Origin: Candidatus Raymondbacteria bacterium RIFOXYA2_FULL_49_16
Lineage (GTDB): Bacteria; Fibrobacterota; OXYB2-FULL-49-7; XYB2-FULL-49-35
DNA length: 64,000 nt
Reading direction: 5' to 3'
Assembly (NCBI GenBank): GCA_001789205.1
Contig: MFYT01000107.1
Location: forward strand, 1-64,000
Shown: one piece after another, positions 954 to 59,897 of the stretch
Position numbering within the stretch: position 1 is the first letter of the stretch
How the letters are laid out: every line of letters starts with the position of its first letter
Notes under the pieces: model-generated
Told to the model about the DNA's origin: nothing
Database searches by the model: none
Seen by the model: only the letters and a program-made list of their open reading frames with translations
Translations under genes and position numbers: made by a program

Positions 954-1976
954 TCATAATCCAAACCTGTATATGTTCCCCGAAGAGCTGGTCGCCCATC
1001 CATGCGTTTGATCCACGAAAAACATATCATTCAGATGGGCTGCCTCGAATTGATGCTCCCAGGTGATGCCGCCATCATATGTCTGCCAGATCCCCTGCAT
1101 AGGGTTAGGAGCCAAATTATTGGTTTCAGTAGCAGCCCAGCCAATAGTTTCGGTTACGAAATGAACTGACCATATGAATGGTATGTTCAAGTGCTGACAT
1201 GTCCAGGTTTTTCCAGAATCGGTTGTGGCTACAATAGTTCCGTTCGTAGAGTCGTCTGGGGCAACAGTTGCAATCCAACCCTTTGCATGGTTAATAAAAA
1301 ACAGGTCCATAAAGATAACCATGGCGCCATAGTCAAGCGAATTGAGATTTATGATATTCCAATTATTTCCGCCGTCGACCGTATGGAGGACGAGTCTGTT
1401 TGTGGCTGTGGCCCACCCTTCAAGAGAATCCAGGAATTGAACTGATGTGATGGCATAGATCGTATTACTCGTTTGAGGCGTCCATGTGATTCCACCGTCA
1501 GTGGTATGATGAATGCCGCCAAAATTATCCACAATCCAGCCGATTCGCTCATTAACAAAAGACAATCCCATGTAAAGCCTGCGGCTTTCGCCGGCAGGTT
1601 GCTGCCAAGCCCAGGTGTCACCGCCATCAGTCGTTTTTCCAATCCAATTACCGTGTCCGCCTATCCAACCATGCAAGGAATCAGTAAAGAATACACATCT
1701 AAGACTGCCGGATGTGCCGCTCAATTGGGGAGTCCATGAGATACCACCATCGTGTGTGTGAACGATCTTTCCAGCGTTGCCCACTATCCACCCATTGAGC
1801 TGGTCGAGAAAAAAGATTCCTTCATGACCGTAAGTAGAAGAATCGATCTGGTGGCAGATTTCCCATGCTGCCGAGGGTGGGGGAGATGATGGTTCTGGCA
1901 CTGGCTCTATGGCTTTGTTACAGGCACAGAAGAAAATTGGGATGATACATAAAAGGGTAAGAAGCATATGGGTCAT
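954..1976 (-). CDS. Ycf48/BNR-type beta-propeller lipoprotein
   Basis: 340 aa. The N-terminus is a signal peptide ending in a cysteine (FFCAC), so it is probably a lipoprotein, followed by a Pro/Ser-rich linker. The rest consists of about six repeats built on G-W-I-V-G and T-x-D-G-G-x-x-W motifs (for example HTHDGGISW, KTTDGGDTW, HTVDGGNNW, QTYDGGITW). This is the blade pattern of Ycf48/HCF136-like and sialidase-type (BNR) propellers. In non-photosynthetic bacteria these are secreted or surface proteins of mostly unknown function; nothing here indicates catalysis. It lies downstream of an attC-like hairpin on its own strand, suggesting it may be mobile. Confidence 0.75.
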   Translation of the reverse strand: MTHMLLTLLCIIPIFFCACNKAIEPVPEPSSPPPSAAWEICHQIDSSTYGHEGIFFLDQLNGWIVGNAGKIVHTHDGGISWTPQLSGTSGSLRCVFFTDSLHGWIGGHGNWIGKTTDGGDTWAWQQPAGESRRLYMGLSFVNERIGWIVDNFGGIHHTTDGGITWTPQTSNTIYAITSVQFLDSLEGWATATNRLVLHTVDGGNNWNIINLNSLDYGAMVIFMDLFFINHAKGWIATVAPDDSTNGTIVATTDSGKTWTCQHLNIPFIWSVHFVTETIGWAATETNNLAPNPMQGIWQTYDGGITWEHQFEAAHLNDMFFVDQTHGWATSSSGNIYRFGL

Positions 1977-2041
1977 GACTATACCTTTTCTGTTAGAGTT
2001 GCCATGATTAGAAGGTTGATGTGATAACCGCGGTTTAATAC

Positions 2042-2145
2042 GCGCAACGTTGGGCCGCTAACCTGCGCGTGACAACCAATTCAAAAACCCTTTCTGGAAC
2101 CATGGTTCCCTATAATATGGCGCCAGGTTGAGCGGCCTTGTTGCT
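2042..2145 (-). repeat. attC-like imperfect inverted repeat (possible integron recombination site)
   Basis: Two arms can pair: GCAAC at 2044-2048 with GTTGC at 2140-2144, and GGCCGCTAACCTG at 2053-2065 with its complement at 2124-2137. An unpaired spacer of 2-4 nt lies between the two stems, and a single extra G at 2130 bulges from the inner stem. The centre carries a perfect 14-bp palindrome at 2096-2109 (GGAACCATGGTTCC). Two stem blocks, an unpaired spacer, an extrahelical base and a variable terminal hairpin form the architecture of integron attC sites. The minus-strand end GTTGCGC fits GTTRRRY with one mismatch. No integrase is visible, so this is a structural resemblance, not proof. Confidence 0.35.
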
Positions 2146-2177
2146 TTGTGTCTTTCGCATATTCGTAGTTGTTTGAT

Positions 2178-2190
2178 TATGCTGGCTGAT
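2178..2190 (+). repeat. Left copy of a 13-bp perfect inverted repeat flanking the small lipoprotein gene
   Basis: TATGCTGGCTGAT here is the exact reverse complement of 2588-2600. The two copies lie 2 and 5 bp outside the coding region 2193-2582, so they bracket exactly one gene. No target-site duplication is visible outside them. Confidence 0.6.
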
Positions 2191-2192
2191 CA

Positions 2193-2582
2193 TTATTGTT
2201 TTAATTCTAAGTATATGTTGGTGTCAATTTTGATGTTCTCCTTAATCATAATATCAATAATATCATAACTTTGATGTCGAAATTGAATTTTATAGGAATT
2301 TACTCCACTATATTTCTCCGGAACTGTATAGTTAATGTTATAAATCCCGGTGGAATCAGTCTTTTCATCATACATAGAATAAAATACTTCTCCATCCCAA
2401 CTAAATAAATTATTACAAAATAAAGTTATTTGAACGCTATCTAATGTACGCTTGTTTGAATTATCAAAAATAGTTCCAGAAATAATAATTTCGTCTGGTT
2501 CTTTTTTATCGTCATCAAGTAGCCTTGAACAGCTCAGGAAACACATACTTAATGTAATAGTCAGTACAACTTTATTAACCAT
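2193..2582 (-). CDS. Small lipoprotein with a regulatory-like beta-sandwich domain
   Basis: 129 aa. The signal peptide ends in a clear lipobox (CFLSC), so it is lipidated at about Cys18. An acidic linker (DDDKKEPDE) follows. The remainder has the layout of a carboxypeptidase-regulatory/transthyretin-like beta sandwich: an early I-S-G-T-I-F-D strand, a DSVQITL strand, a D-S-T-G-I-Y-N-I hairpin and a final I-D-T-N-I-Y-L-E-L strand. Such domains are common as surface or adhesive modules in FCB bacteria. The gene is exactly enclosed by 13-bp perfect inverted repeats. AT-rich compared with the core genes, suggesting horizontal origin. Confidence 0.65.
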   Translation of the reverse strand: MVNKVVLTITLSMCFLSCSRLLDDDKKEPDEIIISGTIFDNSNKRTLDSVQITLFCNNLFSWDGEVFYSMYDEKTDSTGIYNINYTVPEKYSGVNSYKIQFRHQSYDIIDIMIKENIKIDTNIYLELKQ

Positions 2583-2587
2583 ATTTA

Positions 2588-2600
2588 ATCAGCCAGCATA
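2588..2600 (-). repeat. Right copy of the 13-bp perfect inverted repeat
   Basis: ATCAGCCAGCATA, reverse complement of 2178-2190. It lies 5 bp upstream of the start codon of the small lipoprotein gene, so it also covers the position where a ribosome-binding site would be expected. Confidence 0.6.
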
Positions 2601-2635
2601 TTTACACATTTTCAGGCTATGCGAAGACCATCAAA

Positions 2636-2710
2636 ACCGGGTAGGGCAGGGCCCTTGCGGGCCCTTTCCCCCCTAAGAACCGTACTTGATAGTTTCCCAT
2701 CATACGGCTA
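2636..2710 (-). ncRNA. Group II intron 3' end: domains V and VI
   Basis: Read on the minus strand, 2710-2676 folds as a canonical domain V. It has the AGC triad in AGCCGTA pairing with the GTACGGTT side, and an upper stem TGATGG/CTATCA closed by a GAAA tetraloop. A G-rich linker leads to a second hairpin (GGGCCC, GCAA loop, GGGCCC) and then CCCTACCC, matching domain VI with its branch-site A. The sequence style resembles bacterial class C introns. The exact 3' splice boundary (about 2636) is estimated. Confidence 0.75.
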
Positions 2711-2719
2711 AAGCATTCC

Positions 2720-3407
2720 TTAAGACCGCCCTTGTGGAACAGTCCGGTGATTGTACCTCAGAATCGCACGGGCCGACAACTCTTTCCACAGACGCGCCTC
2801 CTTCTTCTCCCGCCTGTACGAGAAATATCCCGCATACGCAGGATCATACGGGTTTGCGTCCGCCTTTATCTTGAGATGCCGCCTGATGCCTATGGAGCTG
2901 ACGCGAACCACGCAATACAGTTGTACCCCTTTCTTGCGTTTACGCCTTACCGAGAATATCCATTTCTGCCCAGCCGCTTGCCAATACTGTTGTATCAACC
3001 AGCCTTTGGACTTTCCAGGATGGTTCCGGCGTATCATTCTCCATAGCTGCCCGTAGACATACTGGTCAACCCGGTTAAACGCCCCTGACGCCACAACATG
3101 ACGGTGGTAATTGGCCCATCCACGAAGCGTTTCATTCAGCTTCCCAATGAGCTTTTCCATCAGGTCGTTCCTATACGTACGGATGATGGTTCCCGCCTTT
3201 TCAATGATTGTCCGGACCGCCTCTATCGAGGGCGTTATGCGAAGCACACTGCCGAACTTGCGAAAAGACTGGCCGAGGAACTTGAAACCATCCCTGATAT
3301 AGGTTATCCTACTTTTCTCCTCTGAGATTGTAAGGCCGCGTTTTGCAAGGAACGCTTTGACCGCGGGGATGATCTTCATCACCAGCAGTCTTCTCGACTT
3401 GGCCGTG
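2720..3407 (-). pseudogene. ltrA: 5'-truncated group II intron maturase/reverse transcriptase
   Basis: Only the C-terminal part of an intron-encoded protein remains. From residues GTAKSRRLL onwards the frame (open from at least 3407, first ATG at 3382) matches the end of the RT domain (FLAKRGLTISEEKSRIT), then the maturase domain X (FKFLGQSFRKFG, GWANYHRHVV) and a basic C-terminus. The catalytic YADD palm motif and everything before it are missing. Reading upstream of about 3407 the similarity stops, so a deletion or recombination removed the intron 5' end. No HNH endonuclease motif follows the ANPYDPAYAGYF segment. The product cannot be an active reverse transcriptase. Confidence 0.8.
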
Positions 3408-14618: not shown

Positions 14619-15041
14619 TCAGGCTTCAACGCATCTCAAATGTCCAGCTTTGGCATATTCCATTATTTTAGCGTCTTTGGTGATCAGTATAGCGTTCTTT
14701 TGTCTGGCGGTCGCGACAATAATTCTATCAGCAGGATCTCCATGAAAATTCTCTGGAAGTCGGGTGCTGTCCACCGCAATCTCGATCGAAATAGGTGCGA
14801 GAGAGAGGCCGGGTATAGTGACGGCCTCTTTTATCCACGTGTGACAGTCCTTTGATAGTACAATCCGGTTTTTTGCCTCGAGCATGGCCACTTCCCAGAG
14901 TGAAATGGAAGACAGATAGAGCGAGGAATGCTTTGCCGCATCTGTAATCAAAGCCTGATGTTTTTTGTTTAAATTATCATCTCCCAGCACATACCATAAC
15001 CAGGTATGTGTGTCCAGAATGACACAATGGTCTTTATTCAT
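14619..15041 (-). CDS. vapC: VapC-type PIN-domain toxin
   Basis: 140 aa from the ATG at 15041. The opening VILDTHTWLWYVLGDDNL carries the first catalytic Asp, LSSISLWEVAMLEAKNRI the second acidic residue (Glu), and DPADRIIVATARQKNAILITKDAKI the third cluster. This is the DTHTLLW-type VapC class, RNases usually neutralised by Phd/YefM antitoxins. The antitoxin gene ends 8 bp inside its start, giving translational coupling; longer in-frame starts (up to 15083) are less likely. Probably autoregulated with its partner through the palindromes upstream. Confidence 0.85.
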   Translation of the reverse strand: MNKDHCVILDTHTWLWYVLGDDNLNKKHQALITDAAKHSSLYLSSISLWEVAMLEAKNRIVLSKDCHTWIKEAVTIPGLSLAPISIEIAVDSTRLPENFHGDPADRIIVATARQKNAILITKDAKIMEYAKAGHLRCVEA

Positions 15042-15261
15042 GTGCCGCATCCCATGCTTCGGCAACAGGAGATATAATGTCACCCGTTATTTCCGCTGTT
15101 CCTTTCATCATGCCGAAAAGCTCAGCAGGCTTTTGACTGACGGGTACCAGCTTGGCTGTTGGGATGCCACGTTTTGTAATTATCAATTCTTCATGAGTTT
15201 CATTGATCTCATCAATATACCTCAAGCAGTGTGATTTAAATTTTCCTGCGGCTACTATCAT
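15034..15261 (-). CDS. Phd/YefM-family antitoxin
   Basis: 75 aa. The fold signature is clear: VAAGKFKSHCLRYIDEINETHEELIITKRGIPTAKLVPV, that is an N-terminal beta-alpha DNA-binding unit with a conserved T-K-R-G-x-P-x-A-x-L motif. The C-terminal segment after about residue 45 is the disordered arm that wraps the toxin. GGAGG stands 5 bases before the ATG. It should bind the paired 14-bp palindromes 13 bp upstream to repress the operon, with the toxin as co-repressor, as is usual for the family. Confidence 0.87.
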   Translation of the reverse strand: MIVAAGKFKSHCLRYIDEINETHEELIITKRGIPTAKLVPVSQKPAELFGMMKGTAEITGDIISPVAEAWDAAHE

Positions 15262-15273
15262 GGTATCCTCCGT

Positions 15274-15301
15274 ATGACTATAGTCATATGACCATAGTCA
15301 T
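15274..15301. promoter_or_regulatory. Tandem palindromic operator of the Phd/VapC module
   Basis: Two directly abutting 14-mers: ATGACTATAGTCAT (15274-15287, a perfect palindrome) and ATGACCATAGTCAT (15288-15301, one mismatch). The arrangement, just upstream of the antitoxin ribosome-binding site, is that expected for two dimers of a Phd-type repressor binding side by side. Confidence 0.8.
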
Positions 15302-15342
15302 AATATAGCTTTTCTTCGAGTTATAATCAAATTTTATTGGTT

Positions 15343-15558: not shown

Positions 15559-15585
15559 TTCCAGGTCGATTACCCGGATGTAGGG

Positions 15586-15709
15586 GCGAGGTTGTTGTTA
15601 TGGTATGTAGGGGCGGGTTTCAAACCCGCCCCTACGCCAACCCCCAAAACCGATGTTTAAAAATCCCATCCGGTTCAACGAAACCTGCCCCTTCGAAGAA
15701 AATCGACAT
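15586..15709. repeat. 124-bp direct repeat, left copy, with a 29-bp perfect palindrome
   Basis: Nearly identical to 16617-16740 at a fixed offset of 1031 bp, differing at a modest number of positions concentrated near the right end. It contains the palindrome at 15607-15635, whose 14-base arms (GTAGGGGCGGGTTT and its complement) are separated by one base. It lies just upstream of the Y1 transposase gene. Confidence 0.85.
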
Positions 15710-15768
15710 TGTCTTTTCGTGCATGGTATTTGCCCTTTTCACGGTGTCAAATGTATTTTTGAACCCTT

Positions 15769-16515
15769 ATGGTTTGGCACCAATATCACGAGCATATCAG
15801 GAAATTTATCCCTGGCCTGTTTCACCGGCAATCTATCCGGTTAAAGGGATATGATTATTCCCGGCCAGGGGCATATTATTTCACGATATGTACTCTTGGC
15901 AGGGTCAAACAACTTGGCCACATTGAGAACGGGGCCATACATTTAAATAACAAAGGCGCTATTGTTAATGCATGTTGGTACGATCTGCCGAATCACTATC
16001 CGTACGTTTGCCTGGATGCGTTTTCAATTCTCCCAAACCACGTGCATGGTGTGGTGATATTATCAAATAATATGAAGAATGCAGGGAGGGGCAGGATACC
16101 TGTTATGGGGGCGCGGGGGATGCATGATGTAGGGGCGGGTGAGATGCGTGTTGTAGGGGCGGGTTTGAAACCCGCCCCTACAAAAACCAAAATTGGCCGT
16201 GCAGAAATTTCAACCACCTCTACAGAAACAACGGAAACCGAAATTGACCATGAAGAAACCTCTCCTGGTACGAAGGAAAACAAAACCACCCCTCCGGAAC
16301 GGCATGGATTCCCGGAAATAATCAGGGCATTGAAGACGTTTTCAGCCAGGCGTATTAATGAGCCACGTAATCTTTATGGTAATGCCTTTTGGCAGAGGGG
16401 ATATTTCGAACACATTATTCGGAATGATGTCGATCTACAGCGTATTCGGAAATATATTCTTGAGAATGCCCAGCAATGGGAATATGACAGAAATAATCTA
16501 GAACGGAAAGAATAA
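15769..16515 (+). CDS. Y1/HUH transposase of the REP-associated (RAYT) type
   Basis: 248 aa. Family hallmarks are IRLKGYDYSRPGAYYFTICT near the start, the HUH motif in LPNHVHGVVI, FPEIIRALKTFSARRIN and the C-terminal YFEHIIRND-DLQRIRKYILENAQQW, where the Tyr of RKYI is the likely nucleophile. RAYT proteins cut and rejoin single-stranded REP hairpins. The middle (about residues 104-180) is expanded and repetitive (MGARGM, VGAGEM, VGAGLKPAPT), because a 29-bp palindrome identical in type to the flanking ones has entered the gene in frame at 16153-16181. Long repeats lie on both sides. The start is uncertain. Confidence 0.85.
   Translation: MVWHQYHEHIRKFIPGLFHRQSIRLKGYDYSRPGAYYFTICTLGRVKQLGHIENGAIHLNNKGAIVNACWYDLPNHYPYVCLDAFSILPNHVHGVVILSNNMKNAGRGRIPVMGARGMHDVGAGEMRVVGAGLKPAPTKTKIGRAEISTTSTETTETEIDHEETSPGTKENKTTPPERHGFPEIIRALKTFSARRINEPRNLYGNAFWQRGYFEHIIRNDVDLQRIRKYILENAQQWEYDRNNLERKE
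16153..16181. repeat. 29-bp palindrome inside the transposase coding region
   Basis: Arms of 14 bases (GTAGGGGCGGGTTT and complement) around a central G. Read in frame it encodes VGAGLKPAPT. Half copies (GTAGGGGCGGGTGA, GGGGGCGCGGGGGATG) immediately upstream encode the related MGARGM and VGAGEM stretches. Confidence 0.9.
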
Positions 16516-16864
16516 TCCCCAAGGCCGGAGGGATGTACGTTGTCGGGCCGGAGGGGTGTATGTTGTCGGACCGGTGGTATGATATTGCAGGGGCGGGTGA
16601 AATATATAATGTCGGTGCGAGGTTGTTGTTATGGTATGTAGGGGCGGGTTTCAAACCCGCCCCTACGCCAACCCCCAAAATCGATGTTTAAAAACCCCAT
16701 CCGATCCAACGAAACCCGCCCCTACGAAGAAAACCGGCATCCATGGTGCGAGACATCAACCCGCCCCTATAATAAATTTCGAGACCGATGGTTTAAAAAA
16801 CCACCCGGTCCAACGAAAACGGTCTCTTATTTCCTTGTTTTAATGCTCTTGAAGGGTTATTTTC
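16516..16864. repeat. Repeat-rich spacer downstream of the transposase
   Basis: Contains the right copy of the 124-bp direct repeat (16617-16740) with its 29-bp palindrome (16638-16666), half-palindromes near 16590 and 16757, and a third degenerate copy of the repeat tail at about 16782-16822 (GACCGATGGTTTAAAAAACC followed by a CGGTCCAACGAAAA segment). Three GGCCGGAGG/GGACCGG elements lie at 16533-16575. No gene is supported here. Confidence 0.8.
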
Positions 16865-58907: not shown

Positions 58908-59897
58908 ATGAACATAATGCTCATCAGTGATTCGCCTGAGCTGGGTGCGCAGCTTCAGGACCTTTTAAAAGGTGCGGCGACACACGTGCTCAGGACCGTG
59001 AAATCCGTGGCCGAGGCAATCAATCTGCTTGGCGTGGATTTTCCGGCAGAGTCAGCACCCGCAATAGATCTCTTTCTCGCTGATGATCAGGCCTCTGGTG
59101 TGAACGGAATTCAGGTTTGTTTGCGGTTAAAATCTGTGCCCCGGCTCCGAGCCATCCCGGTCATTCTATTAACTGCAAACCGCCATGCTGGAAAACTGCA
59201 GGAGGCCTTTGACGCCGGGGTCGCGGATTTCATCACCCAGCCGTTCAATACGACAGAACTACTGGTGCGCGTACGGTCTGTCCTGAGACTTAAACAGGAG
59301 ATGGACGCGCGGGTGAAGCGTGAAAAAGAACTCCTGAAACTCTCCAGCAACCTCTCCGAGATCAACTATACCCTTAGCAGGCTTTCTTCGACCGACGTAC
59401 TTACTGGGATCGCCAACCGCTCCAGGTTGGACCAATTCCTGGACCGTGAATGGAAATGCGCAATTCGTGAATCAACGCCGATTTCTTTTTTACTTATCGA
59501 TATCGATCGTTTTACTGTTTTCAACAGCAAGCTGGGACACGAACAAGGGGATGAGTGCTTCATAACAGTGGCCGGGGTCCTGGATCTGAGTTTGAAAAGA
59601 CCGGGAGACCTGGCGGCGCGATTCAACGGCGGCATGTTAGCCGCAGCGCTTACGCACACTGATTCAAAGGGGGCGGCCACTATGGCCGAATTGTTGCGTC
59701 TGGCGGTTTTAATGCTGGCTATTAAGCATCCGGAATCCTCCCTCAGCCAATTCGTGACAGTAACCATTGGGGCTGCCACGGCCAATCCGGGGAAGGACGA
59801 TTCCCATCTTTCGTTGATTGTTGCCGCGGAACAGGCGCTGTACGATGCCAAACAAGAGGGACGCAACTGTTCTCGCCACAAATTGATAGCACGCTGA
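58908..59897 (+). CDS. Response regulator with degenerate GGDEF domain
   Basis: 329 aa. Receiver domain (1-125): MLISDSPELGAQLQDLL, phospho-site region LFLADDQASGVNG, VILLTANRHAG and ITQPFNTTELL; the acidic pocket is weaker than usual (SDSP) and the switch Lys is replaced by Gln in TQP. A coiled linker leads into a GGDEF-type domain: STDVLTGIANRSRLDQFLDREW, FLLIDIDRFTVFNSKLGHEQGDECF, and where GGDEF is expected, FNGGMLAAALTHTDS. The active-site loop is therefore degenerate (N-G-G-M-L), so cyclic-di-GMP synthesis is unlikely; nucleotide sensing or dimerisation is possible. Confidence 0.85.
   Translation: MNIMLISDSPELGAQLQDLLKGAATHVLRTVKSVAEAINLLGVDFPAESAPAIDLFLADDQASGVNGIQVCLRLKSVPRLRAIPVILLTANRHAGKLQEAFDAGVADFITQPFNTTELLVRVRSVLRLKQEMDARVKREKELLKLSSNLSEINYTLSRLSSTDVLTGIANRSRLDQFLDREWKCAIRESTPISFLLIDIDRFTVFNSKLGHEQGDECFITVAGVLDLSLKRPGDLAARFNGGMLAAALTHTDSKGAATMAELLRLAVLMLAIKHPESSLSQFVTVTIGAATANPGKDDSHLSLIVAAEQALYDAKQEGRNCSRHKLIAR

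Follow-up and report, generated by a model that had tools for sequence, protein, structure and literature searches.

Cleavage beside a GTAG-footed hairpin has been demonstrated for the TnpA-REP enzyme of E. coli and for others of its kind, and the cleaving and joining of single-stranded REP has likewise been demonstrated for other TnpA-REP enzymes (PMC8266576). The closest described arrangement to the one presented here is that of Quentin et al. 2018 (PMC6006769). The available text of that paper reports tnpA-REP genes of subclass 2.4 into which REPs have been inserted, generally between HuH and Y, with the reading frame unbroken, and it gives double-foot GTAG...CTAC REPs as characteristic of this subclass. 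Di Nocera et al. 2013 (PMC3733652) described REPs residing inside other genes and noted that deletion may explain why some REPtrons are missing. The GTAG/CGTC intragenic REPs and Rickettsia RPEs covered there are, like the element examined here, short palindromes read in frame within protein-coding genes. However, the host genes in those cases are other genes, whereas in the present case the host gene encodes the RAYT itself.

The window (the entire 64,000-nucleotide stretch that was analysed) carries a RAYT, a small domesticated transposase gene. The locus is very probably a REPtron of the type designated TnpA-REP subclass 2.4, in which a RAYT is flanked on either side by its cognate double-foot REPs and carries a further REP in frame within the linker of the enzyme. 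Its features are as follows.

15578 to 15709, plus strand: upstream 132-bp direct repeat with a REP, identical to its downstream partner at 122/132 positions
15607 to 15635, strand not applicable: upstream double-foot REP, a perfect palindrome
15769 to 16515, plus strand: RAYT / TnpA-REP, Y1 HUH transposase, 248 amino acids plus stop, with PF01797, profile and fold matches
16036 to 16047, plus strand: HUH motif NHVH, residues 90-93, invariant columns in relatives
16063 to 16293 (approximate limits), plus strand: variable linker between the HUH motif and the Tyr helix, with the inner REP and half-REPs, low pLDDT
16105 to 16152, plus strand: two 24-bp half-REP units preceding the in-gene REP, read MGARGM and VGAGEM
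16151 to 16183, strand not applicable: in-gene double-foot REP, perfect 16+1+16 with a 29-nt core at 16153-16181, read in frame as VGAGLKPAPT
16390 to 16467, plus strand: WQRGYFEHIIR motif and catalytic-Tyr helix RKYILEN (Y229), near-invariant columns
16516 to 16828, plus strand: degenerate REP / half-REP array 3' of the gene (repeat families D2, D3 and D5)
16609 to 16740, plus strand: downstream 132-bp direct repeat with a REP, pairing with the upstream repeat
16638 to 16666, strand not applicable: downstream double-foot REP, a perfect palindrome

The 29-nt palindrome (14+1+14), GTAGGGGCGGGTTT[C/G]AAACCCGCCCCTAC, is present in three copies that lie upstream of, inside and downstream of the RAYT gene. 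Each ends in GTAG on one side and CTAC on the other, the inner and outer palindromes differ in the central base only, and each is predicted to fold at about -30 kcal/mol (z about -6 relative to shuffles). An earlier note on this DNA had described a RAYT-type HUH transposase between two near-identical 124-bp repeats at an offset of 1031, each with a 29-bp perfect palindrome, and our analyses bear this out: 116 of the 124 positions agree (94%), and the repeats can be followed over 132 bp at 92% identity. A third copy (72%) is found at 16758-16828 within the degenerate downstream array. The in-gene palindrome was also read correctly in that note; the peptide occupies RAYT residues 129-138, between the HUH and Tyr motifs, and the proposed degenerate neighbours, VGAGEM (residues 121-126) and MGARGM (residues 113-118), are half-palindromes with 24-bp spacing. 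Elsewhere in the window, the minus-strand ORF at 14619-15083 resembles a PIN-type toxin (by eye only), and two tandem imperfect palindromes, TATGAC[TC]ATAGTCA, at 15273-15300 near this ORF (span 14619-15302) may constitute the operator of a toxin-antitoxin pair.

The RAYT open reading frame is matched by the Y1 transposase family PF01797 (29.6 bits against a cut-off of 23). The NCBIfam model for REP-associated tyrosine transposases gives 48.9 bits, which is below its cut-off of 80, perhaps because the linker insert splits the model match. In an alignment of 54 relatives, P89, H91 and H93 are invariant columns, and W208, Q209 and Y229 are near-invariant. An AlphaFold model built with these 54 aligned sequences has a core pLDDT of about 95 and a linker, roughly residues 101-175, of about 33-62. 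Residues 99-180 separate the strand at 91-98 from the helix at 181-200, and the REP-encoded peptide falls within the low-confidence stretch. The length of this linker differs among relatives, and it is absent or short in two of them (L041 and L031). The top structural match in the PDB is 4ER8, the E. coli TnpA-REP with its REP hairpin (Z 13.1, rmsd 2.8, 128 residues), with IS200/IS605 transposases ranking behind it, and 4ER8 is also the only match when a profile of the relatives is compared with PDB sequences. A search of the PDB with the single sequence had instead returned AP-endonuclease matches, which arise through the linker and are meaningless. Since the loop that holds the inner REP is disordered and the REP is read in a frame without stops, the RAYT protein is predicted still to fold, as the model and the conserved motifs show.

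In several respects the window RAYT conforms to subclass 2.4 as set out in the available text of Quentin et al. 2018 (PMC6006769). It shares the NH[IFV]H motif (present as NHVH), the WQ motif (as WQRGY) and a variable insertion between beta3 and alphaC, it is without a long C-terminal extension, and its double-foot REPs both flank the gene and occur in frame between HUH and Y. However, its Tyr motif is YILENA rather than the YIxNNP of that description, such that Y, I and one N are kept but N is replaced by E and P by A; the consensus of the relatives is YIxNNP. Two further features distinguish the locus from the subclass as described there: its linker contains additional half-REP units of 24 bp, and the gene is flanked by direct repeats of 132 bp. 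The TnpA-REP of E. coli (REPtron Ec; subclass 2.2, group 2) resembles the window enzyme in its fold, its GTAG-footed hairpins and its flanking REPs, but lacks both a linker insert and a REP in the gene, and the stems of its REPs are bulged whereas the window palindromes are perfect. Thus, the union of enzyme, substrate and tolerated peptide linker that the earlier note put forward does have its cognate flanking REPs and its in-frame linker REP, but it is not new, because the accessible text of the 2018 study already describes this type of arrangement for subclass 2.4.

Across the 5.43-Mb genome, the palindrome occurs at 13 sites when up to 3 mismatches are allowed. Six of these are exact, and three of the exact ones are at the RAYT locus. 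The reversed pattern yields 0 matches in the same genome, and this control, together with shuffles, excludes a chance origin. With 13 sites, the palindrome is rare here by comparison with classical high-copy REPs. When the genome was searched with the whole 1.28-kb unit, neither the RAYT gene nor the 132-bp repeats were found a second time. The palindrome of ~29-33 nt alone is dispersed, and the RAYT unit is present once rather than as a multicopy insertion sequence, which for this genome rules out a 1.1-kb mobile unit with the 132-bp repeats as its ends. The genome does encode further RAYTs. One of these (L048, at G000:C15, match 59192-59791, minus strand) has, at the corresponding place in its linker, a double-foot palindrome of another sequence, GTAGGGGTTCAAAATTTTGAACCCCTAC, which is read VGVQNFEPLQT, and another (L049) has a 17-nt arm pair, GTAGGGGC, with a longer loop in its linker.

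To the RAYTs of the same phylum were added 80 named relatives from many phyla, which were the best-scoring matches of a profile search, and the frequency of linker palindromes may be biased by this choice. When palindromes with a stem of at least 11 are counted, 57 of 103 full-length relatives carry one in the linker. This is a lower figure, because many of the relatives that lack a short-loop palindrome still have paired arms separated by a longer loop: of the 46 that lack one, 33 retain an inverted arm of at least 9 nt, compared with 7 in shuffles. The 20.1 kb of linker sequence holds 59 palindromes, against about 1 in shuffles, and the N-terminal and C-terminal cores hold 6 and 3, respectively. 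Both feet are present in 42 of the 59. There are 47 distinct inner palindrome cores, and related RAYTs tend to share related ones. Inner palindromes match the flank of their own locus at 90% or better in 22 of 37 cases, whereas the rate for the flanks of other loci is 1.7%. Two relatives (L081 and L035) have linkers with a tandem 15-nt half-REP unit, (CGG GCA GGT TTG GAA)n, that encodes RAGLE repeats, and the linker of L044 (G004:C10) has long RDQ and TDM tripeptide runs around its inner REP.

The survey also clarifies why the insertion does not break the gene. The earlier note attributed this to the lack of stop codons in the frame used at this locus. The frame is indeed free of stops, but it is not special, since two of the three frames of the palindrome are open. 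The GTAG foot begins at codon offset 0 in 26 cases and at offset 1 in 20, and never at offset 2, which would place TAG in frame. Tolerance specific to one frame is thus ruled out.

The same note had proposed that the element colonised its own gene. In favour of a recent invasion of this kind, intergenic copies on contigs C29 and C58 agree with the inner REP at all 33 nt, its TT...AA extension included. However, the same site and frame are occupied in relatives from other phyla: the inner REP matches at 29/29 nt in a member of the Anaerolineales (L058) and at 27/29 nt in a proteobacterium (L059), whose proteins are about 50% identical to that of the window gene, and a degenerate version (25/29) is found in a Glassbacteria relative (L052). 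We therefore regard a recent invasion as improbable. The shared site and frame indicate that the inner REP is probably old in this lineage, present in an ancestor and inherited with the gene, as judged by sequence comparison. The nearest genomes compared with the window genome were those of the same phylum. On a RAYT tree built from the relatives found here, without typed subclass references, at least 9 switches occur between the two open frames, which implies that repeated, independent insertions also occurred; the count is approximate because the tree has few strongly supported branches.

The nucleotide sequence of the inner REP can be followed most closely in a seven-member RAYT clade (SH-aLRT 100), where the inner palindromes of all members share one codon position and one frame. 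In six of these (L074, L083, L084, L090, L106 and L110), which come from different phyla and have proteins that are 62-69% identical, the inner REP is invariant at 28/28 positions, and the best other 28-nt window reaches 20/28. All 9 third codon positions inside the REP are invariant, compared with 17/154 (11%) outside (Fisher p 1.7e-8). When only codons for invariant amino acids are considered, the figures are 8/8 inside and 10/61 outside. This pattern points to either a constraint acting at the DNA level or copying from REPs elsewhere, and it suggests that the repeat within the gene is conserved as DNA, nucleotide by nucleotide, beyond mere tolerance. The available text of Quentin et al. 2018 (PMC6006769) makes no mention of such letter-by-letter conservation.

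Three readings of the inner REP can be weighed against these data, and each falls somewhat short of an even chance. Selection might act on the inner copy at the level of DNA or RNA, for example because its hairpin controls the enzyme or its mRNA, with the peptide as a side effect. Beyond the invariance and the third-position result in the six-member clade, this possibility gains from the seventh member (L174): its palindrome differs in sequence but is still perfect, and site and frame are unchanged, so that base pairing was kept. It gains also from three of the six loci (L074, L083 and L090), where no other exact REP copy was found within 7.7-8.5 kb around the locus, so that nearby conversion need not explain the invariance. 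In the clade of the window gene, too, third bases of identical codons agree in 6-9 of 8-10 cases inside the REP, against about half outside. However, an identical pattern would arise if the inner REP were copied from REPs at other places in the genome, the inner REPs of many RAYTs are decayed or have expanded loops and some RAYTs have none, and the rigorous codon test covers a single clade, found after the fact.

Alternatively, and about as tentatively, the inner REP could be a chance, harmless insert in a flexible loop that serves no function, with its likeness to the outer copies reflecting recent spread only. The linker is a low-confidence loop in the model, REPs are read in frame in unrelated proteins as well (a PLP aminotransferase, a Fic protein and several secreted proteins), and the frame switches imply that insertion has happened repeatedly. 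Yet neutral sequence should lose its synonymous sites, which the six-member clade did not, and more than half of the relatives carry an inner REP. A third reading, about as tentative, is that the system actively maintains the inner REP, matched in nucleotide sequence to the cognate REPs across phyla and held at a fixed codon position. Gene and substrate would then travel together, and the RAYT gene or its transcript may be among the targets of the enzyme.

Insertions of the GAGLKPAPT type, which the earlier note suggested looking for in other proteins, do occur. In genome G002 (97% complete, 52 palindromes at up to 3 mismatches), a PLP aminotransferase carries an insert of ~15 residues with VGAGFKPAPT that is absent from the solved relatives PDB 3aov and 1x0m, and the palindrome is also in frame in an APH-like protein. 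Across the loci concerned in this genome (L138, L140, L141, L142, L178, L182, L183, L184 and L185), the palindrome is read in frame in unrelated proteins, and in at least six similar secreted proteins it stands at one position near the C-terminus. The proteobacterial locus L059 has a single open frame (1530-3365, plus strand) that encodes a Fic-domain protein with an in-frame REP (RGGFETRPY), followed by a second REP (VGAGLKPAPT) and then the RAYT; this frame holds three REPs, the third of which sits in the RAYT linker. A literature search for the peptides KPAPT and GGFETRPY returned nothing relevant.

The link between palindrome and enzyme is not strict. Among 167 genomes of the phylum, the palindrome (at most 1 mismatch) is present in 6 and a RAYT of this group in 56. 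The earlier note held that palindromes in a genome without any RAYT would count against its proposal, and G002 is one such assembly: neither the RAYT profile nor PF01797 matched a Y1 transposase there. Strict coupling between the palindrome and a resident RAYT is thus not supported. This case shows that REPs can exist without a resident RAYT, through loss or an assembly gap, and does not show that RAYTs fail to spread REPs.

A mechanism can be proposed that is consistent with the observed anatomy, frames, inner-outer REP association, fold and nucleotide conservation in one clade. The enzyme would recognise the folded single strand of GTAG-footed hairpins, with single-stranded GTAGGGGCGGGTTTNAAACCCGCCCCTAC as the candidate substrate, and would cut beside them; we infer that the window enzyme acts in this way on the window hairpin. 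Such cutting would spread short REP copies through the genome, where dispersed copies are observed, and those of this genome may have been spread by the window enzyme. The inner copy, probably already present in an ancestor given the site and frame shared by relatives, could owe its continued match with the flanking REPs to selection acting on the DNA or RNA hairpin, or to copying from other REPs, and it may have a function of its own.

The locus illustrates that a single gene can unite a short mobile repeat with its enzyme, and that a repeat can turn into a protein linker. Such insertions were earlier described as tolerated, and the dependence of RAYTs on an internal substrate was left open there. 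The nucleotide conservation of the inner REP makes it possible to test directly if RAYT genes need their own internal substrate or are regulated by it.
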